From the NCBI RefSeq assembly GCF_011801145.1, contig NZ_CP046172.1:3906001-3970000 (forward strand): a DNA stretch of 64,000 bases. The letters are read 5' to 3'. The notes beneath the pieces were generated by a model. That model ran no database searches and had not been told where the DNA came from. It saw nothing but the letters and a program-made list of their open reading frames with translations. Both the position numbers and the translations under genes were made by a program. The stretch comes from Nocardia arthritidis. GTDB taxonomy: Bacteria > Actinomycetota > Actinomycetes > Mycobacteriales > Mycobacteriaceae. Positions 35,099 through 50,859 of the stretch are shown in pieces; position 1 is the stretch's first letter; the number at the start of each line of letters is the position of its first letter.

Positions 35099-35624
35099 CT
35101 GGTTCGTGCCTCGCGTCGTCGTAAGGAATCCGGTAATCGAACCTACGAGCGACGACCCGATGCCACCGGCACATTGACGTCTCGTTACCGGTGCACGCCG
35201 TTTCCTTGACGAAACCCATACGGGCCGCGAATCCGCTTCGTTCAGGACCCATCTCAGTGGCCCACACCATAGAGAAACGATATCCATCCGGAGCACTTTG
35301 CCGAAATCGTTAATGCTGGGCCGTTTTCCGCCGATCCAGGGGTGGATGCGGTGTGTCCGCTACTCGCCGGTACCTCGCTGTCCGTTCATCTGCCGGACGA
35401 ACGAATCGAATTGGAGGCCCCTTGTTCGTGTGTACCGTGAACCGCGGGAGCCGCACCGTCGTGTTCCGGAGACAATGCTCTGTTCGCGGTGGGCGACCCC
35501 GGTACGCGCGCGCCCGGGAGCGCGACCGGTACCGCTGCGGTGACCGACACGGATGTCGAGCGGCGGCACTAGGCCCAGGCGTTCCCTTGTGCCGCACTGT
35601 GATTCAGAAGTTGGACAACTGCAC
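35099..35624. other. intergenic region between divergent operons
   Basis: 526 bp between the HTH gene and the second NB-ARC gene. It must carry promoters in both directions. I find no convincing gene, hairpin or repeat. Short open frames here have poor codon use. Confidence 0.4.
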
Positions 35625-36998
35625 ATGGGTAGACGAGAACGACCCATCGACACCTGTACCGGGCCGCTTGCCGCCTTCGCGGGCGAGCTCCGCGGGCTCC
35701 GCGCGGCAGCGGGCAATCCGTCCTACCGGCGGATGGCCGGTGTCGCCCTGTATTCACCGTCGGTGCTCTCCGAGGCCGCGAGCGGCCACCGGCTGCCGAC
35801 GCTGCAGGTGACCCTGGCATTCGTCAAGGCGTGCGGCGGCAGCGCCGCCGAGTGGGAGTCGCGCTGGCGGGCGGTATGCGGCACCGACGCGCCCGGCGAA
35901 CAATCGGCCGACGATCGCCAGGCCGCCGCGGATCCCGGCCGTCCGCGCCCGGCCCAGCTACCGATCGGGCCGCACGAATTTGTCGGGCGCGCAGCGGAAT
36001 TCGACCGTGCGCGCGCCACGGCCGCACAGCTGGATTCCCGGGCGCCGCTGATCGTGCGCGGACCGGTCGGTATCGGTAAGACCACCTTCGCGCTGCGGTT
36101 CGCCCATCAACTGGTCCGCGACTTCCCGGATGGGCAACTGTATGCCGATATGGGTGCGACCAGGCCGGACCGGGCCGTGCCGATGGACGTGATGGCGGGA
36201 TTCCTGCATGCGCTGGGCGTGCCGCCGGATCAGGTACCCGGCGACGAGATGCACCGCACCGGCCTCTATCGCTCCATGCTCGCCGAACGCCGGGTGATGG
36301 TGTTGCTGGACAACGTATTCGACGAGCGGCAGGTCCGGCCGCTGCTGGCTCGCTCACAGCACAGCCAGATCCTGGTGACCAGCCGCTCACGGCTGCTCGG
36401 GCTGGAGGGGGTGCGGCGCATCTCCCTCGGCCCGCTGTCACGGGCCGAATCGATCGGGTTGCTGCGGGTGCTCGTCGGCGGCGACCGCGTCAATGCGGAA
36501 TATAGTGCGGCACAACAGATCACGGAGTTCTCCGGTCAGCTGCCGCTGGCGCTCACCATTACCGGACGGAAGATCGCGGCCCAGCCGGGACGCCGGCTGA
36601 TCGAGGTGGCCGATCGGCTCGCCGCCGGTGTGCACGTGGCGAATTGGCTGCGGATCGGCGACGTCGGGCTGTCCGACGCGGTATTGCCCGCATTCCTCGC
36701 GCTGCCACCGCTGGCCAAGCATGTTGTGCATATGCTCGGCGGGCGAGCGGATGAGCTGACCGTCGGCGGGCTGGCCGAAATGCTGCACATCTCCATCGAC
36801 TCCGCCGAATACGCGATGGACCGGCTGATCGATGGCGGTCTCCTGCATCGTGTTTCGTCCCATGATCGATATTTCGTGCCACCGTTGATCGGACAGTTGA
36901 TCGCGCAGGAGACCGATCGCTTCGCCATCCAGGCCGACCCGGACACCGAGCCGCTGCGTGCGGTGCTGCGGGTCGCGGGCGTCCCTTTCGCCGATTGA
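35625..36998 (+). CDS. XRE-type HTH and NB-ARC regulator
   Basis: 457 residues from ATG 35625, since the frame upstream is not protein-like. An N-terminal XRE-like HTH (about 10-75: LAAFAGELRGLRAAAGNPSYRRMAGVALYSPSVLSEAASGHRLPTLQVTLAFVKACGG) is followed by NB-ARC with P-loop GPVGIGKTTFA (about 144-154), Walker B VMVLLDNV, LVTSRSRL and the GQLPLAL motif. A short winged-helix region ends the protein, with no TPR tail. This is the truncated AfsR/SARP-like STAND regulator layout without the BTAD part. It is the second NB-ARC protein within 5 kb and may sense conditions for neighbouring genes. Confidence 0.83.
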   Translation: MGRRERPIDTCTGPLAAFAGELRGLRAAAGNPSYRRMAGVALYSPSVLSEAASGHRLPTLQVTLAFVKACGGSAAEWESRWRAVCGTDAPGEQSADDRQAAADPGRPRPAQLPIGPHEFVGRAAEFDRARATAAQLDSRAPLIVRGPVGIGKTTFALRFAHQLVRDFPDGQLYADMGATRPDRAVPMDVMAGFLHALGVPPDQVPGDEMHRTGLYRSMLAERRVMVLLDNVFDERQVRPLLARSQHSQILVTSRSRLLGLEGVRRISLGPLSRAESIGLLRVLVGGDRVNAEYSAAQQITEFSGQLPLALTITGRKIAAQPGRRLIEVADRLAAGVHVANWLRIGDVGLSDAVLPAFLALPPLAKHVVHMLGGRADELTVGGLAEMLHISIDSAEYAMDRLIDGGLLHRVSSHDRYFVPPLIGQLIAQETDRFAIQADPDTEPLRAVLRVAGVPFAD

Positions 36999-37197
36999 CA
37001 CCTCGTGCCCGATTGATCGGCGCCGGCTTCCGGACAATTCCCGGCCCGTCGCGCGTCGCCGTCGAATTGTTGTTCTTTTGTTCGTGATTCGCGTTCGGCG
37101 GCGGAATACATCGATGTCGCGTGGGTAGCGTCATCTCGCAAATCCGTTCCGCGGGTTGATATCCCAGACGTGCATCGCTCCCGACGAGGACCCTTCG

Positions 37198-38406
37198 ATG
37201 ACTGCTGTTCGTACCCGAGTCCGCGGCGGTGTGCTCACCGCGATCCGCGAAACTCCGCCGCCGGTCCGCTATCTCCTCCTCGGCGTGCTGGTGAATCAAA
37301 TGGGCGCGTTCGCCCAGACATTTCTGGTGCTGTACCTGACGCATCGCGAATTCACCGTCGGTCAGGCCGGTATCGCGCTCACCGCCTACAGCGGGGGCGC
37401 CGTATTCGGCACCGTACTCGGCGGGGAGCTGACCCATCGGCTGGGTGCGCGCGGCACGATAGTCGCCGCTATGACGGGGTCGGCGACCGTCCTCGCGGCG
37501 ATCCCGCTGCTCGCCCGGCCCGGACTGTTCTTCGCGCTGATCGGCGCGGTCGCGGCGGCCGGGCTGGTGACTCAGGCCTATCGGCCCGCCGCCGCGGTGC
37601 TGTTGAGCGACCTTATGCCGCAACAACATCGGGTGATGGCGTTTTCCATGATGCGGATCGCGCTGAACGCGGGCGCGGCGGTGAGCCCGTTGATCGCCGC
37701 CGCGGTGATCCTGGCCGACTGGAATCTGCTGCTGTGGATCGATGCGGCGACGGCGGCGGTCTACGCCGTTCTGGCCTGCACGCTGCTGCCCGGTCGTGCG
37801 GTCAGGGGTTCGATAGATACTGCTGCGGCGCACCAGAATTCGAAGCTGTCGGTAATTCTGCGCGACCGGCGCTACCACCTGTTCCTGGCCTCGGTGCTGC
37901 TCGGCTCGGTGATCTACACGCAGTACATCGTCGCGCTGCCGTTGAATATCACCGCCGATGGTTATCCGACAACGCTTTACAGCGCGGTGCTGGTGACGGC
38001 GTCCGCGGTGCTGATCGGGTGCGAGTTGAAGATCACCTCGTACGTGCGGCATTGGCCGGGCGCGGCGGCGGGTGCGGTCGGCACCATGGTGATGGGGTTC
38101 GGCGCCGCGGGCTTCGTCTTCGCCGGATACTCGGCCGCGGCGATCGTGGCCTGCACCGCGGTCTTCGTGCTCGGCGTAATGATCAGTGGCCCAACGATGT
38201 TCGCGTATCCGAGCAGCTTCCCCGCCGAGGTCAAGGCCCGCTATGTCGCCGCCCATCAGGCGACCTTCGGGCTCGGATCCGCGCTCGGGCCGACGCTCGG
38301 CGTGCTGGCGTGGGAGCGGCTCGGGTCCGGTGTCTGGCCACTGTGCGGCGCACTGGGACTCGTCGCGGCGTGGTGCGCGTACGCCGGGATGCGCCGGGCG
38401 GCCTGA
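37198..38406 (+). CDS. MFS transporter
   Basis: 402 residues from ATG 37198 with GAGGA eight bases before. About twelve membrane helices. The typical MFS loop 2-3 motif appears as GGELTHRLGARGT, and the overall pattern resembles drug or metabolite exporters (DHA type). It is followed after 29 bp by a small membrane protein gene, and a strong terminator separates both from the biosynthetic cluster. It could export the cluster product, but position argues for an independent unit. Confidence 0.85.
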   Translation: MTAVRTRVRGGVLTAIRETPPPVRYLLLGVLVNQMGAFAQTFLVLYLTHREFTVGQAGIALTAYSGGAVFGTVLGGELTHRLGARGTIVAAMTGSATVLAAIPLLARPGLFFALIGAVAAAGLVTQAYRPAAAVLLSDLMPQQHRVMAFSMMRIALNAGAAVSPLIAAAVILADWNLLLWIDAATAAVYAVLACTLLPGRAVRGSIDTAAAHQNSKLSVILRDRRYHLFLASVLLGSVIYTQYIVALPLNITADGYPTTLYSAVLVTASAVLIGCELKITSYVRHWPGAAAGAVGTMVMGFGAAGFVFAGYSAAAIVACTAVFVLGVMISGPTMFAYPSSFPAEVKARYVAAHQATFGLGSALGPTLGVLAWERLGSGVWPLCGALGLVAAWCAYAGMRRAA

Positions 38407-38435
38407 GGCAGCATCGATCGTCGCCGGAGGAAACC

Positions 38436-38990
38436 ATGCCCATCGATGTCGCCAAGGCGCGCAACGGCGTTCGGGCGCGTGGGCGGGAGTTGACGGCGCC
38501 GGTCGCCGTCGCGATCGCGGCGCCTGCCGCGTTCGGGGCCGCGATCTGGGCCTCGACCCGGATACACGCCGGGCCGGTGCTGTATCACGCCGCGCTGTTC
38601 ACCCACCTGTCCTCGCTCGTGCTCGGATTCGGTGCGGTCCTGGTCGCCGACTACCTCGCCGTGCTGTGGCTGGCGGGGCGCTGCACACTCGCCGAGGCGG
38701 TGGCGGGCGCACAACGGCTGCACCTGCCGATCTGGCTCGGCCTGTCCGGCCTCGTGACCAGCGGCATGTTCCTGCGCCCCGAACTCGATGCGACGGCGAC
38801 GCGAATCAAGCTGGCGCTCGTGCTGATCCTGATCGTCAACGGCGTGCAGGCGCTGGCGCTCGGCAGGCGGATGACGGCCGCCGAGCCGATCGGCACCCGG
38901 CTGCTGGTTCGCGGCGTCGCGACAACCGTTGTCTCCCAGCTGTGTTGGTGGGGATCGCTGTGGATCGGCTTCTGGACCGCGCAGTCGTGA
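38436..38990 (+). CDS. four- or five-helix membrane protein
   Basis: 184 residues from ATG 38436 with CGGAGGAAA upstream. Hydrophobic helices at about 20-38, 49-75, 92-108, 122-140 and 158-178. Charged loops are short. It resembles small actinomycete membrane proteins (possibly DUF2214/CopD-like), but I do not recognise a diagnostic motif. It is probably co-transcribed with the MFS gene and followed by an intrinsic terminator. Confidence 0.65.
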   Translation: MPIDVAKARNGVRARGRELTAPVAVAIAAPAAFGAAIWASTRIHAGPVLYHAALFTHLSSLVLGFGAVLVADYLAVLWLAGRCTLAEAVAGAQRLHLPIWLGLSGLVTSGMFLRPELDATATRIKLALVLILIVNGVQALALGRRMTAAEPIGTRLLVRGVATTVVSQLCWWGSLWIGFWTAQS

Positions 38991-38997
38991 CCAGCTG

Positions 38998-39039
38998 AGC
39001 CCTGGGTAGCGCGTAACACGTTGCTACCCAGGGCTTTTT
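38998..39039 (+). terminator. strong intrinsic terminator
   Basis: Perfect 13-bp stem AGCCCTGGGTAGC (38998-39010) and GCTACCCAGGGCT (39023-39035) with a 12-base loop, followed directly by a TTTTT run (39035-39039). It cleanly separates the MFS unit from the biosynthetic cluster starting at 39147. Confidence 0.93.
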
Positions 39040-39146
39040 GGTGTGTTCGGAGTTGATGTCCGGGTCCGGCGAACGCTGTCGATCAATGCGCGCGCCGCAT
39101 TCACTGATTCCAGCGAATCGAACCCATCGAGAATCAGGCGGAAGAT

Positions 39147-40439
39147 GTGACCGAATACGACCTCGACGTCCTGGCGGTCGGCGCCGGGCCCGCGAACCTG
39201 GCCCTCGCCGTCGCCTTGGAGGAATCCGGGCACCGGCGCCTCGCCGAGAACACCCTGCTGCTCGAACAGCACCCCGACGTGAAATGGCAGCGCAACCTGC
39301 TGCTGCCATGGGCGCGCAGTCAGGTCTCCTTCCTGAAAGACCTTGTGACACTCCGTAATCCGCGCAGCAAGTTCTCTTTCCTGAACTACCAGTACGAGCG
39401 CGGGCGGCTCGACGAATTCGTCAACCTAGCCACGTTCAACCCCTACCGCTGGGAGCTGTCGGATTATCAACAGTGGGTGGCACATTCGTTGGACCACGTC
39501 CGGGTGCGCTACAACGCGCGGGCCGAACGCATCGAGCCCCGCTGCGCCGGTGACGGCGGGATCACCGGGTGGACCGTGTATTTGGCCGACGGTGACCGGA
39601 TCAGTTGCCGCGATCTGGTTTTCGGTGCCGGACGTGATCCGCACATCCCCGGGGTCTTCGCGAATCTACCGGCGGACAAGGTGATTCACAGCAGCCAGTA
39701 CTGCGCCAGGATCGCGCAGGTCGCCGCGGCGGAGGAATCGGTTCGCCCGGTGGTGGTCGGCGGCGCGCAGAGCGCCGCCGAGATGTTCATGGCGGTGCAC
39801 GCTGACCTGCCGCGCAGTGAACCGACCATGGTGCTGCGCTCGATCGGGTTGCAGAACTACCAGACAAGCAAATTCGTCAACGAGCTGTTCTATCCGTCGT
39901 TCGTCGACGAGTTCTACGGCTGTGCGGGCGAGGTGCGCGGCCGGATTCTCGACGAGGTGCATCTGACCAACTACGCGGGTCTGGCGCCGCCGTTCCTCGA
40001 CGAGCTGTATTCGATGCTGTACCGGCAGAAGATGTTGGGGGAGCGGCGATCCCGGATCCGCTCGATGACCGAGGTGGTCGCGGCGCGGATGGACGGCGCC
40101 GAGATCGTGCTCGACCTGCGCGACCGCAAGAGCGGCAAGGTGGAACCGCTGCGCTGCGACACCGTATTGCTGGGCACCGGCTACGACCAGCGAATGCCTG
40201 CGATGGTGCGGGAACTGGTGGCCCGGATCGGGCTCGCCGAGCCGGCGGTGAGTCGGCGCTACCGGGTCGAGCTCGGTGGATCGAATTGGGGCGCACTGTA
40301 TTTGCAGGGCGTCAACGAGCGGACGCACGGTATCTCCGACAGCCTGATCAGCGTGCTGGCGCATCGCTCCCAGGACATCGTCGACGATCTGCTCGATCGC
40401 CGCGCGGTATCCGGCATGGCGCAGGTGCGGTCGGCATGA
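39147..40439 (+). CDS. L-lysine/L-ornithine N-monooxygenase family flavoenzyme
   Basis: 430 residues from a GTG. N-hydroxylating flavoprotein of the IucD/PvdA/SidA family: FAD motif GAGPANLALA (12-21), NADPH motif VVGGAQSAAE (about 203-212) and LGTGYDQRMP near the C-terminus; KDLVTLRNPRSKFSFLNY matches the family substrate region. It would hydroxylate the side-chain amine of lysine or ornithine. Because cupin, MetRS-like and amino-acid-oxidase-like genes follow, the closest functional model is Spb38/Tri26, which make N6-hydroxylysine for hydrazine formation. The alternative, siderophore synthesis, lacks support: no NRPS or IucA-like genes are nearby. ATGA overlap with the cupin gene. Confidence 0.9.
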   Translation: MTEYDLDVLAVGAGPANLALAVALEESGHRRLAENTLLLEQHPDVKWQRNLLLPWARSQVSFLKDLVTLRNPRSKFSFLNYQYERGRLDEFVNLATFNPYRWELSDYQQWVAHSLDHVRVRYNARAERIEPRCAGDGGITGWTVYLADGDRISCRDLVFGAGRDPHIPGVFANLPADKVIHSSQYCARIAQVAAAEESVRPVVVGGAQSAAEMFMAVHADLPRSEPTMVLRSIGLQNYQTSKFVNELFYPSFVDEFYGCAGEVRGRILDEVHLTNYAGLAPPFLDELYSMLYRQKMLGERRSRIRSMTEVVAARMDGAEIVLDLRDRKSGKVEPLRCDTVLLGTGYDQRMPAMVRELVARIGLAEPAVSRRYRVELGGSNWGALYLQGVNERTHGISDSLISVLAHRSQDIVDDLLDRRAVSGMAQVRSA

Positions 40440-40807
40440 TCGAGATCCGCGGTCTCGACCGCACCGAACTGATCCGGGCATACGGCGTCGAATCCGCGCG
40501 CCTGCTGCCGTGGCCCGCGCTGAACGCGCCGTTCGAGGGCGCGTGGTGTGTGCTGCGCCCCGGCGGGGTGTCCGCAGCGCACGCGCACCACGAATACGAG
40601 TTGTTCATCGGCATCGCGGGCCGGGCCGTCGTCGAGGTGGACGGCGAGCGGCACGCGTTCGCCGCGGGCGATCTGGTGCATCTGACACCGGGGGCGACCC
40701 ATCACGTCCGCAACGACGGCGATGCCGACTTCGAGTGGTACGCGATCTGGTGGGACACCGCCATGACGGCGAAATTCGCGGCGCGGCACGAGGAGTCGGC
40801 GCGATGA
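40436..40807 (+). CDS. cupin protein, probable N-N bond-forming component
   Basis: 123 residues, one cupin domain. Motif 1 is G(X)5HXH(X)3E(X)6G with His49, His51 and Glu55; motif 2 supplies His89 in PGATHHVRN. All four metal ligands are present. In Spb40 and Tri28 a cupin of this kind is fused to a MetRS-like domain and rearranges an aminoacyl ester of N6-hydroxylysine into the hydrazine. Here it is a separate gene whose stop overlaps ATGA at 40804, keeping it translationally coupled. Function is inferred from gene set and motifs. Confidence 0.85.
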   Translation: MIEIRGLDRTELIRAYGVESARLLPWPALNAPFEGAWCVLRPGGVSAAHAHHEYELFIGIAGRAVVEVDGERHAFAAGDLVHLTPGATHHVRNDGDADFEWYAIWWDTAMTAKFAARHEESAR

Positions 40808-40881
40808 GCGAGCTTGCGAGCGAATCAATGGGCACAGCGCGCACCGCGCATGCCGCGACCGAGCGCCAGCGAGGGAGCGGC
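40804..40881 (+). repeat. 78-bp in-frame insert at an ATGA gene junction (MIRU-like)
   Basis: The segment between the cupin stop and the likely MetRS-like start begins ATGAGCG (40804) and is followed by ATGAGCG (40882), so removing it restores a plain ATGA overlap. It is 78 bp, stop-free in the downstream frame, and contains repeated GAGCG/GCGAG words. Mycobacterial interspersed repetitive units have similar size and are known to sit at such translational-coupling sites. No second copy is visible in this window. Confidence 0.5.
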
Positions 40882-42411
40882 ATGAGCGGGCCCACTATCG
40901 TGATCTCCCCGGCGCCGACGGCGAACGGCGATCTGCACCTCGGCCATATCGCCGGGCCCTTTCTCGCCGCCGATGTATATACCCGGTACGCGCGGGCGGT
41001 CGGCCGGGAGGTGTTGTTCGGCAGCGGCGTTCAGGACACCTCCACCTTCGTGACGACGACCGCGCATCGGCTCGGCACCACCCCGGAGGCGCTGATCCGG
41101 CGTTCCGCGAAGGAGGTCGAGGCGACGCTCGGCGCGCTCGGTATCGCCGTCGACGGATTCACCGGTTGGGAGTCGCGTTTCACCACATTCGTCGCCCGCT
41201 TCGTGCGCGAGCTGTACGACCTGCGCCGACTGGAGCCGCGACCGATGACCTTCCCGTATCTACCGCGCACCGGCGAGTTCCTGGTGGACGGTCATGTGGC
41301 CGGGGCCTGCCCAGTATGCCTGGAGGAGTCGTGCGCGGGATTGTGTGAGGGCTGCGGACATCCGGTAGCCGCCGCCGAACTGCTCGACCCGCGGTCGACC
41401 CGGTATCCGGACGAGCCGCTCGAATTCCGCACGGCCGTGGTTCTCGTGCTGCCGCTGGAACGCTATCGGGTTCAGCTGCGCGCGCATTTCGCCGGCTTGG
41501 TCGCGACGTTGCGGCCGCACCCGGCCCGTCTGCTCGCCGAGCTGCTCAGTAGTCGATTGCCGGATTTCCCTGTGACATACCCGATTTCGTGGGGCATACC
41601 GGTGCAGGGCGGTGAGTTCGGCGGTCAGGTGATCAATCCGAACGCCGAGTCCGCCGCCTGGACGATGTACTGCGCGACGGTCGCGGCGGAGCGCCGCGGC
41701 GGCAACCCCGAGGCCGAGGATGCGCTGTGCCGCAGGGAATCCGGGGCGCGGATCGCGTATTTCCTCGGCGCCGACAATATCTACCCGTTCGCCATCGTCG
41801 CTCCGGCGCTGATGCTCGCGCACGGCGATCGCTATGCGCTGCCGAAGATGTTCCTCACCAACGAGTTCTATGAGCTGGACCATGAGAAGTTCTCGACCAG
41901 CCGGGGACATGTGGTGTGGGGCCGCGAGCTCGCGGCGCGGGTGCCGCGGGATCTGACCCGGTTCCATCTGGCCGATGACAGCCCGGAGTTCCAGCGCACC
42001 AGCTTCAACGAGCGCGCGCTGGCCGAGCGCACCGGCGCTCGGCTGGTGGACCCGTGGAATCGGGTGGCGGACAAGGTCGATGCCTGGGTAGGGCGCGGCC
42101 CGCTCGCGGTGTCGCCGCGGGCCCGGGAACTGTCCGCCCGGATCGTCGAGCGCTTCACCGCCGCATACGAATTGCCCGGATTCAGCCTGAATCGCGTTGC
42201 GCGGACAGTGACCCGGCAACTGATCCGGTTGGCCGCCACCGCCGAGGAAGGCGGCGATTTCTGTCAGCAGGTCGATGTGGTATTGCGCTGTGCCGCACCA
42301 ATTCTCATCGACCTGGCAGCCGTGCTGCCGGATACCGGGATCACCGGCGCGGCCGACCGGACCCATATCGAACCGCTGCGTCTTCCGCGCCTGAGCCGGG
42401 TGGGTGGCTGA
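40882..42411 (+). CDS. methionyl-tRNA-synthetase-like ligase (hydrazine synthetase type)
   Basis: 509 residues from ATG 40882, preceded by GAGGGAGC; an in-frame ATG at 40804 would add 26 residues encoded by the inserted repeat. Class I synthetase fold: PTANGDLHLGH (12-22, HIGH motif), a Cys cluster CPVCLEESCAGLCEGC (about 143-158, zinc-knuckle-like) and KFSTS (336-340, KMSKS equivalent). It is too divergent and too short at the anticodon end to be a housekeeping MetRS. In Spb40/Tri28 the equivalent domain activates glycine and transfers it to N6-hydroxylysine. Here it is split from the cupin. The amino acid activated cannot be read from sequence. Confidence 0.85.
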   Translation: MSGPTIVISPAPTANGDLHLGHIAGPFLAADVYTRYARAVGREVLFGSGVQDTSTFVTTTAHRLGTTPEALIRRSAKEVEATLGALGIAVDGFTGWESRFTTFVARFVRELYDLRRLEPRPMTFPYLPRTGEFLVDGHVAGACPVCLEESCAGLCEGCGHPVAAAELLDPRSTRYPDEPLEFRTAVVLVLPLERYRVQLRAHFAGLVATLRPHPARLLAELLSSRLPDFPVTYPISWGIPVQGGEFGGQVINPNAESAAWTMYCATVAAERRGGNPEAEDALCRRESGARIAYFLGADNIYPFAIVAPALMLAHGDRYALPKMFLTNEFYELDHEKFSTSRGHVVWGRELAARVPRDLTRFHLADDSPEFQRTSFNERALAERTGARLVDPWNRVADKVDAWVGRGPLAVSPRARELSARIVERFTAAYELPGFSLNRVARTVTRQLIRLAATAEEGGDFCQQVDVVLRCAAPILIDLAAVLPDTGITGAADRTHIEPLRLPRLSRVGG

Positions 42412-43437
42412 ATGGGCACCGTCGTCATCGTGGGGGCCGGGATCACCGGCCTGCTCACCGCCGTCCAATGCGTGGGGCAGGGGCATCGGGTGATCGTCAT
42501 CGATCGCGGCCCCATCCCGAATCCCGCGTCGAGCTCCTTCGATCAACACCGGGTGCTGCGGGCGCCGACCGACGCCGATGTGGGCCTGCACCGGCGGTGG
42601 CTGGGGTTGCAACTGCTGCTCGGCGGCCACTTCTACCGGCGGGTCGGCGTTGTCACCGGCTGGCCGAGCGAACGCGTGGACGGCGCGATGGCCGCGGCGC
42701 GCAGGGCGGGCATCCCGATCAGCTTCGTCACGCCGAACCGGCTGCCGCACATCGTATTTCCCGCCGGATACCTCGGCATCCGGGAGGCCGACGCGGGGGT
42801 GCTGCTCGCCGCGCGGGTATTGCACGCGGCCGTCCGGTGGCTGCGTGCGCGGCAGGCGGTGACGCTGCGGCCGTGGACCGAGGTGGTGGCCGTCGACGCC
42901 GCCGCGGGCCGCGTCGAGCTGGCCGACGGCACCGCGCTGACCGGGGATCTCGTGCTGATCGCCGCGGGCGTGCGGACGCGCGAACTGGTGTCCGTCCGGG
43001 TGGTCGTGCACCGTCAGACCGTCGTATACGTGCGGCCGCCGGAGGAATTGCTGCCGTGGTGGGAGCGGGCGCCGAGCGCGGGCGGTGTCGGCGCGGACGG
43101 TACGGGCTGGCTGCTGCCGCCCGGCGACGGCGCGCTGCTGAAGCTCAGCTCGACCGGAATGTGCCGTGCGGTATCGACATTCACCGAGCCCGCCGACACG
43201 GATGTGGCGGCCGCCCTGCGCTGCCGGGAACTGCTGTTGCCGCAGGCGGATCGGTACGGGGTGGTCGCGATCAAACACTGCCACTACACCGTCGACGCCG
43301 AATCCGGTCGCGCGGCACTGGAACAGGTCGGTCCCGCGGTGTGGGCCAGGGCGGCCGTCGGCGGCGACGGGTTCCGCACCGCGCCACTGGTCGCCGAGCG
43401 CATCGCCGAACTGGCCGCGGCCGGGCTGGCCGCCTGA
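42412..43437 (+). CDS. FAD-dependent amine/amino-acid oxidase (DAO/glycine oxidase family)
   Basis: 341 residues starting directly after the MetRS-like stop. N-terminal FAD fold: VVIVGAGITGLLTAV with GxGxxG at 8-13 and Asp31 at the end of beta 2; the C-terminal GGDGFRTAPLVAERIAELA is the second FAD contact typical of DAO enzymes. In the s56-p1 and triacsin pathways an enzyme of this family (Spb39, Tri27) oxidatively cleaves the lysine-glycine hydrazine to release hydrazinoacetate. That is the proposed role here. Family call is firm; reaction is by analogy. Confidence 0.87.
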   Translation: MGTVVIVGAGITGLLTAVQCVGQGHRVIVIDRGPIPNPASSSFDQHRVLRAPTDADVGLHRRWLGLQLLLGGHFYRRVGVVTGWPSERVDGAMAAARRAGIPISFVTPNRLPHIVFPAGYLGIREADAGVLLAARVLHAAVRWLRARQAVTLRPWTEVVAVDAAAGRVELADGTALTGDLVLIAAGVRTRELVSVRVVVHRQTVVYVRPPEELLPWWERAPSAGGVGADGTGWLLPPGDGALLKLSSTGMCRAVSTFTEPADTDVAAALRCRELLLPQADRYGVVAIKHCHYTVDAESGRAALEQVGPAVWARAAVGGDGFRTAPLVAERIAELAAAGLAA

Positions 43438-43462
43438 CGAAAACATAAGGGAGACAAAAAGT

Positions 43463-44761
43463 ATGAACACCTCCGACGACGCACTGCTGGTGATCGGCAG
43501 CGGGCTGCGGGTATATCGCGAATACCTGGTCCGGTCCGCGCACGCTCGGGCCAGGACACACGGGCTGGATCTGATCCTGCTGAACAACCTCGAACCCACC
43601 TGGCAGCGAGACTATTTCGACGATTTCGTCGTCGCCAACCTCTTCGATCACGACATCCTCATGGCGAAGGGCCGCGAAATCGCCCGTAGGCGAAGCATTG
43701 TCGGCCTGCTGTGCTGGGACGAACCTCTGGTGCAACCCGCCGCGGACCTGGCCGATGAACTCGGCGTACCCGGACTGAGCCCCGCCGGCGTGCGCGGTTG
43801 CCGGGACAAGAACCGGACCAGGACGGTGCTCACCGCCGCCGGACTGGTGCAGCCGCGTTTCGCGCTCACCGACACCGTGGCACAGGCGCGGGCCGCCGCC
43901 GCGCGCATCGGCTACCCGGTGGTGGTGAAGCCGCAGGCGCTCGGCGCGAGCATGGGTGTCGTACTCGCCCGCGACGAGCGCGAATTGACGGTGGCGTTCG
44001 GCGTCGCGGCCGGCGCGAGCACCATCGGCGACGCGCCGTTCCGGGACACCGCGCTGGTCGAGGAGTTCGCGGTGGGTCCGGAGATCAGCATCGACGCCGC
44101 GGTCTACAAGGGTGAGTACCTGCCGATGTTCCTGGCGCGCAAGCGAACCGGAATGGAGCCGTATTTCGAGGAGGTCGGGCATATCGTCGACGCCGACGAT
44201 CCGCTGCTGCGCGACGAGGCGTTGCTGCGCACACTGTCCGACGCGCACCGGGAACTCGGTGTCGAGAACGGCATCACGCACAGCGAGGTGCGGTTCACCG
44301 CGCGCGGCCCGCTGATCATCGAGATCAACGGGCGGCTCGGCGGCGATCTGATTCCGTTCCTCGGCAAGATCGCCACCGGGATCGATCCGGGCGAGGTGCT
44401 CGTCGATATCGCGACCGGGCGGCGGCCGACCCTGGCCCGGACGCGAAATGCCGTGGCGGGTATCCGTTTCGGCTATCCGGAGCACGACTGCGTCGTCCGC
44501 TCGGTGCGGGTGCCCGAGTGGGGACCCGGTCTGGTGACGGCGGCGGCGATGGTCGAGCCCGGCGCCGAATTGCGGCTGCCGCCGGGCGGATACATCGCGC
44601 GGCACTCGTTCGTGGTGTGCGCGGCGGCGGATCCGGCCCGATGCGCCGAATTCCTGGACGCCGCGGCGGATTCCGTGCGATTGGACGGCGAGCCGCTGGA
44701 ACCGCTCACCGCCGGTGCGGCTTTCACGCTGCCCGCCGGACTGCTGGACGCCGACAAATGA
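43463..44761 (+). CDS. ATP-grasp carboxylate-amine ligase
   Basis: 432 residues from ATG 43463 with AAGGGAGA upstream. The N-terminal part is a pre-ATP-grasp fold; the ATP-binding lysine lies in YPVVVKPQALGASMGVV, the 'VEEFAVGPEISIDAAV' strand follows, and the metal-binding end is FTARGPLIIEINGRLGGDLI. It resembles the carnosine-synthase/BtrJ-like group that joins free amino acids. In this cluster it would form an amide between a hydrazine acid or amine and an amino acid, replacing an NRPS. It overlaps the next gene by ATGA. Confidence 0.88.
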   Translation: MNTSDDALLVIGSGLRVYREYLVRSAHARARTHGLDLILLNNLEPTWQRDYFDDFVVANLFDHDILMAKGREIARRRSIVGLLCWDEPLVQPAADLADELGVPGLSPAGVRGCRDKNRTRTVLTAAGLVQPRFALTDTVAQARAAAARIGYPVVVKPQALGASMGVVLARDERELTVAFGVAAGASTIGDAPFRDTALVEEFAVGPEISIDAAVYKGEYLPMFLARKRTGMEPYFEEVGHIVDADDPLLRDEALLRTLSDAHRELGVENGITHSEVRFTARGPLIIEINGRLGGDLIPFLGKIATGIDPGEVLVDIATGRRPTLARTRNAVAGIRFGYPEHDCVVRSVRVPEWGPGLVTAAAMVEPGAELRLPPGGYIARHSFVVCAAADPARCAEFLDAAADSVRLDGEPLEPLTAGAAFTLPAGLLDADK

Positions 44762-45081
44762 TCAATTACGACGGCCGCCGCTTCCGCAACCCCGCCGATG
44801 ACGACGGTGTCATCGCGCGCTACCACCAGCGCGGCGACCTGGTGTGGGCGTATTTCGCCGGCGGTCCGGTGCGCCGCGGCGCCGCGACCGGGGTCTGCGA
44901 GCGGGACGGTGTGCTGCGACTGGCCTACACGATGGTGCTCGCCGACGGCGCGGTCATCGCCGGACACACCCGAACGACCCCGGAACACACCGAGCATGGC
45001 GTGCTGCGCCTGCGCGAGGAATGGGAGCGCTACGGAAGCGATTCGGCCACCGGCGTCTCATATCTGGAGGAGGTGCGATGA
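44758..45081 (+). CDS. small conserved protein ('N-acetylglutamate synthase-like')
   Basis: 107 residues beginning MINYDGRRFRNPADDDG. It belongs to a small family in Streptomyces and relatives that is loosely labelled n-acetylglutamate synthase but has no GNAT motif; the fold is probably a beta-strand repeat (RYHQRGDLVWAYFAGG, RLAYTMVLADGAVIAG, LRLREEWERYG). Coupled to both neighbours by ATGA overlaps, so it is part of the cluster. It may bind a pathway intermediate or act as a lipocalin-like chaperone; this is a guess. Confidence 0.75.
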   Translation: MINYDGRRFRNPADDDGVIARYHQRGDLVWAYFAGGPVRRGAATGVCERDGVLRLAYTMVLADGAVIAGHTRTTPEHTEHGVLRLREEWERYGSDSATGVSYLEEVR

Positions 45082-46424
45082 ACGAGCTCGCCGAGCTGCG
45101 CGCCGGGCGGGTTCGCTATCCGGGCGAACCCGGATTCGCCGCCGCGACAGCACCTTTCAACAAGCGTTACGCCGATTTGCGGCCCGCCGCCGCGCTATCG
45201 GTGCGCGGCGCGGTCGATGTCGCGCGCGCGATCGACTGGGCCCGCACCGAGGGGGTGCGGGTGGCGGTGCGCGGCGGCGGGCACAGCTATGCCGGTTACT
45301 CGGCGGGCGCGGAGCTGGTGCTCGATCTGCGCGCGCTCGACGATATCCGGGTCGACGCGCGATCCGGGCTGGTCACGGTCGGCGGCGGAACACGGTGTGG
45401 CGCACTTTATTCGGTATTGCAGCGGCACGATCTGGCGTTCCCGCTGGGAAATTCGGACGATGTCGGCATCGGCGGGCTGGTGCTCGGCGGCGGTGTCGCC
45501 GCCGTATCCCGCGCCTTCGGGCTGACCGCCGACGCGCTGGTGCGGACCGAGATCGTGTTGGCCGACGGCACCATTCGCACCTGCGACGCCACCGAACATG
45601 CCGACCTGTTCTGGGCCTGCCGCGGTGGCGGGGGCGGAAACTTCGGTGTGAACACATCTTTCACCTTCCAGGCGCGGGCGCCGCGGCCCAGTGCCACCTG
45701 CCTCGTGCTCTGGGAATGGGCGCATGCCCGCGAGGTGCTGGCGATATTGCAGAAGATCATGGCGGCCGCGCCCGACGAATTCGCGGCCAGGATCGGAGCG
45801 AGTCGTGCGGGCCGGGCGGCCGGGACGGTGTCCATCGTCGGCCAACATCTCGGCACCGCGGCCGAATTGCGTGAACTCCTCGCACCCGCGCTCGCGGCGC
45901 AACAGCCGCGACATTGCGATATCGGAGATCGATCGTATTGGGCGGCAAAGGATTTCCTGCGCCACGAGACCTCCGGCGATCCATTCGCCGCGCGCACCCG
46001 CTGCACGGCGGAACCGCTCCCGGAGGCGGGTATCGAGACGATCGTCGCCGCCCTCGATCGCTGGCCGGGCAGCGGCAATCCGGACGGCGCCGGTGTCGCG
46101 CTGTTCACCTGGGGCGGGGCCATAAGTCGGATCCCGGTGGCGGACACCGCGTTCCCGCATCGCGACACCCTGTTCCTGATCTCGATGGACACCTCGTGGA
46201 GCCGACTGGATCGGGCGCGGACGGTATGGTGCAACCTCGAATGGCTCGACGGCCTGTACGCGGAGATGGGCGCGTACGCGGGCGATGGCGCCTACGTCAA
46301 CTTCACCGATCCGAGCCTGCCGCACTGGCGTTCGTCCTATTACGGTCCGAACCGGTCGCGGCTGGTCGAGATCAAACGGCGCTACGACCCGGATCGTTTC
46401 TTCGACTTTCCGCAGGCGTTATGA
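45078..46424 (+). CDS. FAD-linked oxidase, berberine-bridge/PCMH type
   Basis: 448 residues. The FAD-binding PCMH domain has RGGGHSYAGYS, where His69 would link covalently to the flavin, and GIGGLVLGGGVAAVSRAFGL. The second flavin-linking Cys seen in bicovalent members is replaced (GNSDDVG), so only a His bond is expected. The C-terminal BBE segment reads YYGPNRSRLVEIKRRYDPDRFFDFPQAL. No export signal, unlike many secreted members. In the cluster it could dehydrogenate a hydrazine to a hydrazone or azo species. Start is set by an ATGA overlap and AGGAGG upstream. Confidence 0.87.
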   Translation: MNELAELRAGRVRYPGEPGFAAATAPFNKRYADLRPAAALSVRGAVDVARAIDWARTEGVRVAVRGGGHSYAGYSAGAELVLDLRALDDIRVDARSGLVTVGGGTRCGALYSVLQRHDLAFPLGNSDDVGIGGLVLGGGVAAVSRAFGLTADALVRTEIVLADGTIRTCDATEHADLFWACRGGGGGNFGVNTSFTFQARAPRPSATCLVLWEWAHAREVLAILQKIMAAAPDEFAARIGASRAGRAAGTVSIVGQHLGTAAELRELLAPALAAQQPRHCDIGDRSYWAAKDFLRHETSGDPFAARTRCTAEPLPEAGIETIVAALDRWPGSGNPDGAGVALFTWGGAISRIPVADTAFPHRDTLFLISMDTSWSRLDRARTVWCNLEWLDGLYAEMGAYAGDGAYVNFTDPSLPHWRSSYYGPNRSRLVEIKRRYDPDRFFDFPQAL

Positions 46425-47020
46425 ACGGGTGCACAGCGGATCTCGGCGGACAGCTGAGGGAACCGCCGGGACCGGTACCGGAATTCGATGGCCCGGACGC
46501 ATCGATGCCGTTGCGGCCCAGCGGAATTACCGCCGATGCCCTGCGCGACACCATGCGCGACTTCGCGACCGGGGTCGCCATCGTGGCGACATATGTCGAG
46601 CACACCGGTATCCGGGTGCACGACGCCGTCACCGTCAACTCGCTGACGTCGCTGTCGCTGTCGCCGCCGCTGGTGTCCATCAGCCTGCGCCGCGACTCCC
46701 GGTTCCGCGCGGATCTGGAGACGTCGAGGGTGTGGTCGATTTCCATACTCGATGGCGAATCACAGTGGCTGGCAGCCTATTTCGCACGCGAGCGGATCGA
46801 GCGCGCCGCCGCGCTCGGTTCGGTGCGCACCCGGCCCGGCCCGCACACCGGCGCACTGCTGTTCGATGCGGCGGGCTGGCTGGAATGCGTGCTGGAGCGC
46901 GGTTACGAGGTCGGTGACCACACGCTGTTCGTCGGCGCGGTCGTCGGGTCCGGCACCCACCGCAAGAGCAGCCGCCTGGTGTTCCTGCGCGGCGGCTACC
47001 ACGTACTACCTTCCGGCTAG
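46421..47020 (+). CDS. flavin reductase (HpaC/DIM6-NTAB family)
   Basis: 199 residues. The flavin reductase domain begins at about residue 38 (LRDTMRDFATGVAIVATY), with AVTVNSLTSLSLSPPLVSISLRRDSRF and the C-terminal DHTLFVGAVVG. The first 35 residues are an unusual polar extension. It supplies reduced FMN or FAD to a partner oxygenase, most likely the gene starting nine bases after its stop. ATGA overlap with the oxidase gene upstream. Confidence 0.88.
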   Translation: MNGCTADLGGQLREPPGPVPEFDGPDASMPLRPSGITADALRDTMRDFATGVAIVATYVEHTGIRVHDAVTVNSLTSLSLSPPLVSISLRRDSRFRADLETSRVWSISILDGESQWLAAYFARERIERAAALGSVRTRPGPHTGALLFDAAGWLECVLERGYEVGDHTLFVGAVVGSGTHRKSSRLVFLRGGYHVLPSG

Positions 47021-47029
47021 GAGACCCAG

Positions 47030-48253
47030 ATGACCATCGTTTCCGAACAACCGATCGCGCCCGAGCGCGGCGATGCCGCCGAAATCCTCGCCCGCGCACA
47101 GGCCGTCGCGCCGCGGCTGCGCGAGCGGTCCGCGGAGATCGAGCGGCTGCGGCGACTGCCGGACGATATCGTCGAAATGCTGCGCGACACCGGCGTTTTC
47201 CGGATGGGCTTCGCCCGGCGCTGGGGCGGACCGGAACTCACCTCGGTGGAGCAGACCGAGGTGATCGAGGCCATCGCCTACGGTGACACCTCGGCGGGCT
47301 GGTGCGCGATGATTGGCTCGGATACCGGGCTCTACGCCTCGTTCCTGGCCGAACATGTTGTGCAGGAGATGTTTTCGAGCCTGGACATGGTGACGGCCGG
47401 ACTGCTGTTTCCGGTGGGCCGGGCCGAGATCGTATCGGGCGGCTACCGGCTGACCGGCCGCTGGCAGTTCGGCAGCGGTATCACGCACGCGGATTGGGTG
47501 GTCTCGGGCGCGTTCCTGTACCGGGACGGGCGGCCCGAACCCGGACCCGAGGGCATCGCGCACGCCTCGCGGCTGCTGATGGTGCCGCGGGAACAGGTCG
47601 AGGTGCTCGACACCTGGCACACCACGGGTCTGGCGGGCAGCGGCAGTTGCGACTACACCGTCACCGACGTGTTCGTGCCCGAGGGACGAACCCTGCTGCT
47701 GAATGCCGCTCACGCACCGGGACCGCTGGCCCAGCCGGAGGTGCACATGCGGAATATGCCGGGCGTCGCGCTCGGCGCCGCCCGTGCCGCACTCGACTAC
47801 GTGCGGTCCGAATCCGCCTCGCGGGCCGACGATTACCGGCTGCAGGTCACCGTCGCGGAATGCGAGGCGGAGCTGCTGGCCGCCCGCTGCGCGGTGTACG
47901 GCAGCCTGCGGCGGCAGTGGGAGGTGCTCGCGGCGGGCGGCACGCTGGACGAGCTCACGCCGGAGGAACGCGCGGCGCTGCCGCTCGCGCGCCTGTTCGC
48001 CTTCCGCGCCGCGCGTTCGATCGTCGCCCGGCTCTACGACCTGCGCCAGACGGCGTCGATCTACCGTCCGTCGCCGCTGGACCGCTGGCTGCGCGACACC
48101 ACGACGATGTGCCAGCACGTCGTCGCGCAGGACCGCATCCTGCAGTCGGCGGGTGCGTATCTGCTCGGCGGCACACCGAGTTTCGGCCTGTGTCTCGGCC
48201 TGGCACCCGGAAACCCGACGGCCCGAGCCCAGCTCGGACAAGTCAACCGATAA
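47030..48253 (+). CDS. flavin-dependent monooxygenase, acyl-CoA dehydrogenase fold
   Basis: 407 residues from ATG 47030 after AGGAG. Acyl-CoA dehydrogenase-like architecture with N-terminal helical, middle beta (GGYRLTGRWQFGSGITHADWVVSGAF) and C-terminal helical domains. The C-terminal TASIYRPSPLDRWLRDTTTMCQHVV matches the HsaA/DszC/KijD3 group of two-component monooxygenases rather than true dehydrogenases, and it lacks the catalytic Glu context of the latter. With the flavin reductase it would N- or C-oxygenate a pathway intermediate, for example to an azoxy, nitroso or N-hydroxyl group. Confidence 0.86.
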   Translation: MTIVSEQPIAPERGDAAEILARAQAVAPRLRERSAEIERLRRLPDDIVEMLRDTGVFRMGFARRWGGPELTSVEQTEVIEAIAYGDTSAGWCAMIGSDTGLYASFLAEHVVQEMFSSLDMVTAGLLFPVGRAEIVSGGYRLTGRWQFGSGITHADWVVSGAFLYRDGRPEPGPEGIAHASRLLMVPREQVEVLDTWHTTGLAGSGSCDYTVTDVFVPEGRTLLLNAAHAPGPLAQPEVHMRNMPGVALGAARAALDYVRSESASRADDYRLQVTVAECEAELLAARCAVYGSLRRQWEVLAAGGTLDELTPEERAALPLARLFAFRAARSIVARLYDLRQTASIYRPSPLDRWLRDTTTMCQHVVAQDRILQSAGAYLLGGTPSFGLCLGLAPGNPTARAQLGQVNR

Positions 48254-48299
48254 CAGAGCTCGCCGGATAAGCGAGCCTGCTCGATCGAACGGAGAAAGA

Positions 48300-49930
48300 A
48301 TGCGACCCAAGACAATCGCGGCCTATTCGGTGCTCGCCGCGCTCACGCTCACGGCCGGCGCGTGCGGCGGTGCGCCCGCCCGCGCCCCCGTCACCCCCGC
48401 CCGCCCGGGGAGAACGCGGTGATCAGCTACAACGCCACCGAACCGGAAAGCCCACTGGTGCCGGGCGATACGGTGGAGGTCGGCGGCATCAAGGTGCTCG
48501 GCGCACTGTTCAAGGGGCTGGTGGAATACGATCCGAAGACCGCGGCGCCGCGCAATGCGATCGCCGAATCCATCAAGACCACCGATTCGAAGGTGTACAC
48601 CATCACGCTGAAGCCGGGATGGACCTTCCAGGACGGCACCCCGGTCACCGCGAAAAGCTTTGTCGACGCGTGGAATTTCACGGCGTACGGACCCAACCAC
48701 CAGAAGGGCGCCAGCCTGCTCTCGCACATCCAGGGCTTCGATCAGGTCAACTCGAGTGCGGACGTATCACCGGCCGCCGCCGGCCCGGCGCCTGTCAAAG
48801 AGATGTCCGGTCTGCATGTGGTGGACGACCGGACCTTCGTCGTGACGCTGAGCGCTCCGTTCGCGGTCTTCCCGAGTCAGCTCGGCAGCGTGCAGTTCTT
48901 CCCGCTGCCCGCGTCGTTCTACCGGGATCCCGTGGCGTTCAAGGCGCATCCGATCGGCGACGGCCCCTTCGAATTCGTCTCGCACAAACCGGGTTCGAAT
49001 ATCGTCGTGCGCCGGTACGACAAGTACGCGGGCCAGAAACCACATATCGGTGGCATCGAATACCGGTTCTATCGGAATCTGGACGACGCGTACGTGGATG
49101 TGGTGGCGAACAAGCTCGACTACCTGGATTTCGCCCCGTGGACGGCGCTCGTCAACGACCGGTACAAGTCCGAGGTGGGCGATCGCAGTGTCTCCCAGCC
49201 CTATATCGGCGTGCAGGGGATCTCCTTTCCCATCTATGATCAGCGCTACGCCGATCCGCGTGTGCGCCAGGCTATTTCGATGGCCATCGACCGAGTGGGG
49301 TTGATCCAGAAGGTATTCCTCGGCCATCGCGTGCCCGCCGACGGCATCGTGCCGCCGGATATGCCGGGCGCTGCCTCTCATCAGTGCGGTGACCTGTGCA
49401 CCTATCAGCCGCAGCGGGCCAAGGAGCTGTTCGACTCGACCGGGTTCACCGGCGCGGTGGAGCTGGCGTCCAATGTCGATTCCGCGAACGAGGCGTGGAT
49501 GCGGGTGGCCTGCGATTACATCGCCCAATCACTGGCCAGGCCATGTAATTTCGTCTCCGTGCCATCGCTCGGTGAGTTCCGCAGGCAGATCGATTCGCAC
49601 ACCATGACGATGCCGTTCCGTTCGGCGCTGGTCGCCGAATACCCGTCGATCGAGAACTTCCTGAACCAGGCGTACCGGACCGGCGGTTCGGTGAACGCGG
49701 GGCTCTACTCCAACCCCGCCGTCGACGCGCTGCTCACCCGCGCCGACGCGGCGCCGACGGAGCAGGACGGCTGGAAGCTCTACCAGGAGGCCGAACGCAT
49801 TGTCCTGCAAGATATGCCGTCGACCCCGATCTGGTTCCAAAGTGCGCTGTCGATCTGGTCGAGCCGGATGCACAATGTGCAGCCGACGCAGTTCCGCGAA
49901 CTGGACCTGTACAGCGTCACCGTGTCATAA
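48300..49930 (+). pseudogene. solute-binding lipoprotein, family 5, frame broken by one base
   Basis: ATG 48300 with GGAGAAAG upstream encodes a lipoprotein signal (RPKTIAAYSVLAALTLTAGAC, Cys22). The frame then stops at 48422, while the mature domain lies in another frame (ENAVISYNATEPESPLVPGD onward). Adding one G to GGGG 48407-48410 gives a 543-residue protein. It contains LKPGWTFQDGTPVTAKSFVDAWNF, HPIGDGPFEF and VRQAISMAIDRVGL, and is a clear paralogue of the protein at 20829-22436. In the cluster it could take up a precursor, recapture product or act in export sensing. No permease accompanies it. Confidence 0.83.
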
Positions 49931-49935
49931 CCATC

Positions 49936-49966
49936 CGCGCAGGGGCGGGTGCGCCGCCCCTGCGCG
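49936..49966 (+). terminator. hairpin after binding-protein gene
   Basis: Perfect 13-bp stem CGCGCAGGGGCGG (49936-49948) and CCGCCCCTGCGCG (49954-49966), 5-base loop, five bases after the stop. No T tract. It may end or attenuate the cluster transcript before the GNAT gene, whose start is 20 bp further on. Confidence 0.65.
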
Positions 49967-49986
49967 AATCACGAAAGTCCGGACAG

Positions 49987-50859
49987 ATGACGGAGTTACA
50001 CGGGATCGAAGCCCGATCCTTCCTGCGGCCCGCGGAATACGATCAACTGCGCGAACTGGCCCGAGCCGTCGACGAATTCGACGGCATCGAGGTGCGGCTG
50101 ATCTGGTCGCGCCTGACCTCGGACGAGCATCGCCCGGGTAGGCACTACCTGCTCTATTACCACCGCGGCAGGCTCGTCGGCTTTCTCGGCACCTTCACCT
50201 CGCCCGGCCCGGAGCTCAGCGGCATGGTCCATCCGGAATACCGCGGCCGCGGCATCTTTCGGCGCTTGTGGGCCGCCGCCATGGCCGAGGGCGCCCGGCT
50301 CGGCTACGAGTCGTATCTGCTGATCGTCGACGCGGCGTCGGTGCCGGGCAAGCGATTCGCCGACGCACTGCGCGCGACACCGGACCATGTCGAACACAAA
50401 CTGATATATCCGGCCGACCGTGCGGTTGTGCCGGTGCGGCGCAACGGATTCGAGCTCCGCCGTGCCACCGTCGACGATCTGCCGATCCTGCGCGCGCTGA
50501 CCGCCGACGGTTTCGGCATGCCGCTGGCGGAGGTCACCTGGTTCGACGCCCGAAATATCGCCGAGGACAAGGTGCGCGGTCTCCTGGCGCTGCACGAGGG
50601 ACGGCCGATCGGGAAGGCCGACTATTTCGAAACCGGTGACAGCGTCTGCATCATGGGGCTGACCGTCGATGCCGCGTACCGCGGCCGCGGCGTCGGCCGC
50701 CTGATCCTCACCGGCGTCGTGAAAGACATCCGCGACCGCGGCCCGCGCGATATCTGGCTGGAGGTGGACGCCGTCACCGACGACGCCCTGCACCTCTATC
50801 AATCGTGCGGTTTCGAGCGCGTGCGCAGCTACAACTACTACGCCTACCGGCAGCGATGA
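49987..50859 (+). CDS. double GNAT acetyltransferase
   Basis: 290 residues with two GNAT domains. The N-terminal one has VHPEYRGRGIFRRLWAAAMAEG, and the C-terminal one has LTVDAAYRGRGVGRLILTGVV and YQSCGFERVRSYNYY. Both acyl-CoA loops (RGRG) are intact. Triacsin biosynthesis uses a GNAT enzyme (Tri31) to acylate hydrazinoacetate, so a similar acyl transfer to the hydrazine is plausible. It could equally be a self-protection enzyme. Last plus-strand gene of the cluster; it converges on the aminotransferase gene with 16 bp between. Confidence 0.83.
   Translation: MTELHGIEARSFLRPAEYDQLRELARAVDEFDGIEVRLIWSRLTSDEHRPGRHYLLYYHRGRLVGFLGTFTSPGPELSGMVHPEYRGRGIFRRLWAAAMAEGARLGYESYLLIVDAASVPGKRFADALRATPDHVEHKLIYPADRAVVPVRRNGFELRRATVDDLPILRALTADGFGMPLAEVTWFDARNIAEDKVRGLLALHEGRPIGKADYFETGDSVCIMGLTVDAAYRGRGVGRLILTGVVKDIRDRGPRDIWLEVDAVTDDALHLYQSCGFERVRSYNYYAYRQR

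Follow-up and report, generated by a model that had tools for sequence, protein, structure and literature searches.

Enzymes that form N-N bonds are few and are sought after as biocatalysts. In one family of them, the hydrazine synthetases, pairs of a cupin and a methionyl-tRNA synthetase (MetRS)-like protein have been shown to form the bond, and PyrN, from the pyrazomycin system, is a proven member (PMC8664883); a review links the substrate scope of these enzymes to residues of the MetRS-like pocket (PMC11705231). Here we analyse a putative hydrazine-synthetase locus of Nocardia arthritidis (RefSeq GCF_011801145.1, a single contig of 10.0 Mb, NZ_CP046172.1) in a 64,000-nucleotide stretch, bases 3906001-3970000, which we call the window and whose numbering we follow. 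A first-pass annotation had proposed that four coupled genes at 39147-43437, encoding an N-hydroxylating flavoenzyme, a cupin, a MetRS-like protein and a DAO-type oxidase, make an N-N bond from an N-hydroxylated amino acid. Open reading frame (ORF) coordinates and Pfam assignments agree with the four genes and their families: the N-hydroxylase and cupin genes overlap by 4 bases, as do the cupin and MetRS-like genes, and the MetRS-like and DAO genes abut. The unit is larger than had been proposed, an operon of nine genes (39147-48253) whose neighbours overlap or are separated by 25 bases at most, and the five that had been missed encode an ATP-grasp ligase, a 107-aa barrel protein, a berberine-bridge-type (BBE) FAD oxidase, a flavin reductase and an HsaA-type monooxygenase. 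Very probably the operon links nitrogen atoms of two amino acids and goes on to shorten, couple and oxidise the product to a small molecule; with good though not full confidence we regard the nine genes, together with a flanking regulator, exporter and binding protein, as a cluster that makes a small, peptide-like metabolite derived from a hydrazine (Table 1).

The assignment starts from the MetRS-like protein, whose closest solved structure, by sequence and by fold, is PyrN. It carries the two motifs first reported for it, HLGH (residues 45-48) and KFSTS (residues 362-366), and the lysine of the latter, K362, is kept in 58 of 58 aligned rows; we take this KMSKS-loop residue to be the equivalent of PyrN K458. 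A separate conventional MetRS with a KMSKS motif is encoded at 8.81 Mb and matches the MetRS-like protein over residues 16-120 only, and the best NCBIfam matches of the latter, although methionine--tRNA ligase models, lie far below their cut-offs (best 185 of 553 bits). The MetRS-like protein is distinct from the housekeeping enzyme, a point on which the first-pass proposal depended. The four metal ligands claimed for the cupin (His49, His51, Glu55, His89) are present and invariant in 60 of 60 aligned rows, and its closest PDB entries are 4rd7 (E 1.4e-40) and 4mv2/plu4264 (5e-32), which are named by family or locus tag only and may themselves be hydrazine-synthetase cupins, followed by 5uqp, the RHS1 cupin of Rhodococcus jostii (PMC8664883). 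The adjacent N-hydroxylase has L-ornithine 5-monooxygenase (3s5w) and then the lysine enzyme MbtG (9nns) as its nearest solved relatives. The locus combines the features by which the family is recognised, namely a non-housekeeping MetRS-like protein, intact adenylation motifs, a four-ligand cupin and a neighbouring N-hydroxylase, and its identity as a hydrazine-synthetase locus is well supported at the level of sequence. N-N bond formation, as first proposed, is likewise well supported by family membership, because PyrN is the nearest structure, a separate MetRS exists, and conservation extends to the catalytic Glu, the remaining metal ligands and the lysine of the KMSKS-type loop.

The core genes travel together. 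Among 150 genomes of the same genus, 14 match the MetRS-like protein at E <= 1e-60, the present genome included, and in 12 of the 13 others the N-hydroxylase, cupin and MetRS-like genes succeed one another as in the window, their proteins being 60-79% identical (73-79% for the N-hydroxylase, in all 12), with the DAO gene also present in 11 and the twelfth locus ending at a contig end; chance association is therefore excluded. One of the 12 has no match to the HsaA-type gene. The thirteenth genome (G101) holds a different locus (L029) with a cupin, a MetRS-like protein 38% identical to that of the window and, by reading, a nonribosomal peptide synthetase (NRPS) and a pyridoxal-phosphate decarboxylase-like ORF. 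Of 401 genomes of the same taxonomic family, five match at 1e-60, all of them from the same genus and including the present one. A loose profile search of the 401 matched 103 genomes at E <= 1e-15, and many of the hits, in small genomes, reach ~1e-64 and look like conventional MetRS; the E-value alone therefore cannot separate the family from MetRS, while cupin and N-hydroxylase neighbours can. Six regions from this search were taken further: two are RHS1-like (L156, L157), one encodes a fused cupin-MetRS (L158), and in the remaining three (L159-L161) relatives of the cupin or N-hydroxylase were looked for and none was found.

A scan of named genomes, for which two 8-residue motifs from the subfamily of the window protein served as seeds, so that its counts favour close relatives, found 90 loci, of which 80 were kept, some running into contig ends. 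With genes counted at >=43% identity over more than half of the query, so that weaker homologues (such as Kribbella MetRS at 40-43%) go mostly uncounted, the N-hydroxylase, cupin and MetRS-like genes occur together in 49 of the 80 loci, in 43 with the DAO gene added, in 40 with the ATP-grasp gene, in 39 with the barrel protein and BBE genes, in 35 with the HsaA-type gene and in 18 with the solute-binding protein. Seven of the nine operon genes (all but the reductase and HsaA-type genes) thus co-occur in 39 loci, which span fifteen genera: Nocardia, Protofrankia, Saccharothrix, Nocardiopsis, Actinomadura, Micromonospora, Dactylosporangium, Streptomyces (including S. scabiei 87.22 and S. ipomoeae), Kitasatospora, Catellatospora, Pseudosporangium, Amycolatopsis, Actinokineospora, Streptacidiphilus and Kutzneria. 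Among plasmid records 29 match at E <= 1e-40, and six of these were inspected. N-hydroxylase, cupin and MetRS-like genes are shared with the window by plasmids of Pantoea ananatis, P. agglomerans, Deinococcus ficus and Klebsiella variicola (together loci L118, L119, L122 and L123). All but the Klebsiella locus (L122) also have an annotated FAD oxidoreductase, ATP-grasp ligase and substrate-binding protein, so that the Pantoea and Deinococcus sets are shorter forms of the cluster, with a BBE-like oxidase (31%) in Deinococcus; the Klebsiella record ends just inside a DAO-like frame. None of these four has a match to the barrel protein, in contrast to the window. The plasmid of Streptomyces sp. 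BHT-5-2, an unannotated record, encodes by sequence search relatives of the N-hydroxylase, cupin, MetRS-like protein, DAO, ATP-grasp ligase and barrel protein, and that of Streptomyces angustmyceticus has a version adjoining an adenylation-domain gene. The two Pantoea plasmids, from onion isolates, are typed as conjugative.

The amino-acid pocket sets the window enzyme apart. Among 58 cluster-type MetRS-like rows, aligned with outgroups, positions 77 and 280 are Gln and Asn in 34 rows, the window among them, His with His (one Asp) in 10, and Asp (one Ala) with Trp in 14, L029 being a fifteenth row of this last type. Asp and Trp also occupy these positions in housekeeping MetRS, and are found in the three of the four non-Streptomyces plasmid loci that were compared (all but L122). 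In a maximum-likelihood tree of 63 MetRS-like rows the Gln/Asn and His groups fall together (support 100/99), apart from the Asp/Trp rows; support is 100/99 for the His group, 100/99 for the Asp/Trp group and just 89/58 for the Gln/Asn group, and the placement of two rows on very long branches, L031_metG and L156, is unsure. Among loci assigned to a pocket class (L091 is unclassed), the barrel protein, BBE and HsaA-type genes occur together solely with Gln/Asn or His pockets. In the RHS1 system of R. jostii the partner amino acid is glutamate (PMC8664883), and the RHS1-like loci L156 and L157 have an Arg, which may bind the Glu, where the window has Trp286, so that the window lacks this putative signature of a glutamate pocket. 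By sequence comparison the window pocket is that of a derived Gln77/Asn280 clade, unlike those of the fused Nocardia enzymes and of the glutamate-type enzyme, which suggests that the second amino acid would not be glutamate and probably not glycine.

From these assignments a pathway can be proposed. The monooxygenase would N-hydroxylate a basic amino acid on its side-chain amine, the MetRS-like protein would adenylate a second amino acid and esterify it onto the N-OH, and the zinc cupin would convert the ester to an N-N bond via Glu55; these three steps follow from the family memberships tested above. The DAO-type oxidase would then cut one C-N bond to give a hydrazino acid, a role that gene content suggests because Spb39, Tri27 and Apy10 are reported to carry out oxidative C-N cleavage (PMC11705231, section 4.1.2.1). 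In a fifth step the ATP-grasp ligase, whose nearest solved relatives are the L-amino acid ligase 3vot and then BacD and whose K156, E287 and R291 are kept in 52 of 52 rows, could link the hydrazino acid, through its carboxylate or a hydrazine nitrogen, to a further amino or carboxylic acid, where azaserine, triacsin and DOBA rely on carrier-protein chemistry. Finally, the BBE-type oxidase (nearest solved 9p1o, then EncM; H69 in 44 of 44 rows) and the pair of flavin reductase and HsaA-type enzyme (the latter nearest to Rv3094c, then 3-HSA hydroxylase) could oxidise the product, candidate outcomes being a hydrazone, an azo group or an N-oxide, while the barrel protein possibly binds a pathway intermediate. 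The five downstream genes hold most of the information on the product. More specifically, and only tentatively, we propose a carrier-free N-N pathway in which the Gln77/Asn280 clade, whose sister clade has His77, would use an amino acid beyond the reported Gly, Ala, Ser, Glu and Tyr, and in which ATP-grasp ligation, flavoenzyme oxidation and an avidin-fold binder lead to a dipeptide with an azo, azoxy, hydrazone or diazo group in some fifteen actinobacterial genera.

Table 1 Features of the cluster and its flanks, with window coordinates
Feature	Coordinates	Strand	Evidence
Regulator (HTH_31, NB-ARC), probably of the cluster	35553..36998	+	Pfam; 56-71% identical protein in 11/12 same-genus loci
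Major facilitator superfamily (MFS) transporter, probable exporter	37198..38406	+	PF07690 E 4.6e-31; 67-74% identical in 9/12 same-genus loci
Accessory protein, membrane-like by reading	38436..38990	+	No Pfam family; in 3/12 same-genus loci
N-hydroxylating flavin monooxygenase, SidA/IucD/PvdA family (operon gene 1)	39147..40439	+	430 aa; Lys_Orn_oxgnase PF13434 E 2.6e-84
Stand-alone cupin	40436..40807	+	123 aa; Cupin_2 PF07883 E 3.1e-17; metal site H49/H51/E55/H89
MetRS-like ligase half of hydrazine synthetase	40804..42411	+	535 aa; tRNA-synt_1g E 4.7e-55
FAD oxidase of DAO fold, putatively cleaving a hydrazine C-N bond by oxidation	42412..43437	+	341 aa; PF01266 E 2.2e-19
ATP-grasp ligase, L-amino-acid-ligase-like	43463..44761	+	PF13535, PF18130 above cut-off; PF18603 below cut-off
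107-aa barrel protein, predicted avidin-like 8-strand barrel	44758..45081	+	No Pfam or NCBIfam family
FAD-linked oxidase, berberine-bridge/EncM type, FAD-His69	45078..46424	+	PF01565, PF08031
Flavin reductase, candidate partner of the HsaA-type gene	46421..47020	+	PF01613 E 1e-28; in 4/12 same-genus loci
HsaA-type flavin-dependent monooxygenase, acyl-CoA-dehydrogenase fold (final operon gene)	47030..48253	+	PF08028; NCBIfam HsaA below cut-off; 10/12 same-genus loci
Solute-binding protein family 5, start uncertain	48362..49930	+	PF00496 E 5.6e-58; in 11/12 same-genus loci

Several points weigh against this interpretation, beside the bias of the seeded scan. Conservation of the cupin ligands is not by itself proof of function, because PyrN cupin mutants keep activity (H50A ~82%, H90A ~27%), two of the four ligands being non-essential (PMC8664883). 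The nearest solved relatives of the N-hydroxylase are siderophore enzymes. The PDB matches of the DAO-type oxidase are weak (best 1.8e-06), and the FAD oxidoreductases of the Pantoea plasmids give no match to it at 1e-4; its proposed cleavage role derives from the reported neighbours. The late steps are read from gene content, and some loci lack either the HsaA-type gene or the flavin reductase, so a late oxidation may be unnecessary or may take place elsewhere. In five Nocardia loci without the flavin reductase (L018, L020, L021, L024, L028) there is a protein of a PNPOx_N split-barrel group (Pfam on the L018 copy), which may replace it; two others (L023, L026) have neither. A possible natural fusion is seen in Saccharothrix carnea, where one 571-aa open frame spans both the barrel protein and the BBE oxidase (L039:13975-15687).

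The alternative that fares best keeps the N-N bond and follows the early route of s56-p1, triacsin and azaserine, in which lysine and glycine would give hydrazinoacetate, here attached by the ATP-grasp ligase rather than by carrier proteins. The first four proteins do come from the same families as in those systems by Pfam, some characterised homologues share the glycine specificity of Spb40 and Tri28 (PMC8664883), and the azaserine cluster also includes an ATP-grasp gene, azsJ (PMC10445470). At positions 77, 278 and 280, however, the window has Gln, Asn and Asn against Asp, Trp and Trp in two fused Nocardia cupin-MetRS enzymes; the comparison covers these two, which may or may not share the substrate of Spb40, Tri28 and DobE. 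Nor is there an AMP ligase, carrier protein or PF03417 protein, the components of the hydrazone cassette (PMC12154687), among the 14 cluster proteins scanned (35553-50859), and the gaps in the operon are too small for a missed gene. The lysine-glycine analogy of the first-pass annotation is not supported by this pocket or by the gene content, hydrazinoacetate-processing genes being absent from the cluster, and we consider such a route rather doubtful.

A second alternative takes the MetRS-like protein as an ordinary peptide ligase in a cluster for a hydroxamate siderophore or a peptide without an N-N bond, as the analysis of Aravind et al. (2010) allowed. The relationship of the N-hydroxylase to 3s5w and MbtG, and the adjacent solute-binding protein and exporter, would fit such a product, but N-N bond formation by cupin/MetRS pairs has since been demonstrated (PMC8664883), and the 14 cluster proteins include no family match to an NRPS, a siderophore synthetase or a hydroxylamine acyltransferase (no search for siderophore synthetases was made in the rest of the genome). 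The siderophore caveat of the first-pass annotation is thus answered within the cluster; elsewhere in the genome there are four other N-hydroxylase-family genes (27-36% identical), which may also speak against assigning a siderophore to this one, and we regard this alternative as very unlikely. That the MetRS-like protein is a spare or resistance methionyl-tRNA synthetase beside the oxidases by coincidence is scarcely credible, for although methionine--tRNA ligase models are its best NCBIfam matches and the subfamily profile also catches many other MetRS-type genes of the taxonomic family, with E-values down to ~1e-64, those matches fall below cut-off, a separate KMSKS MetRS exists, cupin and N-hydroxylase genes are joined to it in 49 of 80 loci, and PyrN is its nearest structure.

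We also considered a phosphonate link, suggested by a PEP_mutase-superfamily protein beside the regulator in 10 of 12 same-genus loci (e.g. L017:1285-2115), with a relative annotated at the Deinococcus plasmid locus; Pfam was run on one same-genus and one named-genome copy. True PEP mutases carry the motif EDKxxxxNS, and these proteins read NLEDS or a near variant instead. Because that motif is missing, and the 200-base gap between regulator and MFS genes in the window is too small for such a gene, no phosphonate is proposed.

The borders of the cluster are drawn from the flanks. To the right, a GNAT gene (49987-50859) has zero matches at 1e-10 across the 80 loci and was excluded, and from ~50844 on the genes scanned (aminotransferases, aldehyde dehydrogenases, Lrp, PucR, a permease and PAD_porph) read as an amine-catabolism region. 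A lipoprotein-signal-like start at 48300-48422 lies out of frame with the body of the solute-binding protein, and a frameshift or assembly error is possible. The left flank, as scanned, contains Mce proteins, GH65, a piece of an RNA polymerase subunit, ThrE and others; the polymerase ORF, 23544-25529 on the reverse strand, has beta-subunit domains (Rpb2 2, 3, 45 and part of 6) and is possibly a partial or second rpoB. No NRPS or polyketide synthase gene was detected among the 38 window proteins scanned with Pfam, a subset of the window ORFs, in line with the original statement that none lies nearby. The same genome has a second hydrazine-type locus (L030/L124, G000 C1:1655443-1663673) encoding an N-hydroxylase, a DAO, a fused cupin-MetRS (665 aa), an AMP-binding ligase, an alpha/beta hydrolase and a JmjC/Cupin_8 protein.

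Among characterised systems, the locus resembles in its core PyrN and RHS1, which also pair a MetRS-like protein with a zinc cupin, in some cases as separate proteins, and share the Glu ligand and an adjacent N-hydroxylase (PMC8664883). The RHS1 cluster differs in that it was found through its saccharopine dehydrogenase (PMC8664883), where the window has a DAO-type oxidase. The RHS1-like locus L156, whose Rhodococcus origin is inferred from RHS1, shares an ATP-grasp gene with the window and has a cupin equal by eye to the 5uqp stretch, but its MetRS-like protein is 31% identical to the window's, with the Arg at Trp286. With Spb38/39/40, Tri26/27/28, Azs and Dob (PMC11705231, PMC10445470, PMC12154687) the window has in common the N-hydroxylase, the cupin and MetRS-like components and the DAO-type oxidase, although those synthetases fuse cupin and MetRS where the window encodes them separately; the later steps of triacsin, azaserine and dob involve succinylation, an AMP ligase and a carrier protein, and the window cluster has an ATP-grasp ligase and flavin oxidases instead. 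Genome mining for diazo compounds derived from hydrazinoacetate required, among other families, an AMP ligase and PF03417 (PMC12154687), and the window cluster, having neither of these two, would have failed such criteria. The term ATP-grasp does not occur in the text searched of that preprint or of its Nature version (PMC13061610); one of the unnamed cluster architectures there could in principle overlap. The N-hydroxylase-cupin-MetRS paralogue neighbourhoods of Aravind et al. (2010; PMC2922099) have the same strict three-gene association and were likewise predicted to yield a peptide-like metabolite, but no N-N bond was predicted in the text available and ATP-grasp was placed in a parallel system without the MetRS paralogue. 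A search of titles and abstracts found no description of the present architecture; the Matsuda 2024 family survey and a triacsin paper lay outside it, and priority there is possible. Within the literature searched, then, the locus marks a large, conserved and undescribed type of cluster, with its own pocket class and a short set of enzymes in a single operon, carrier-free in its tailoring and without megasynthases, and gives a direct way to test whether N-N metabolites can be finished by ATP-grasp ligation plus flavin oxidation, free of carrier proteins.

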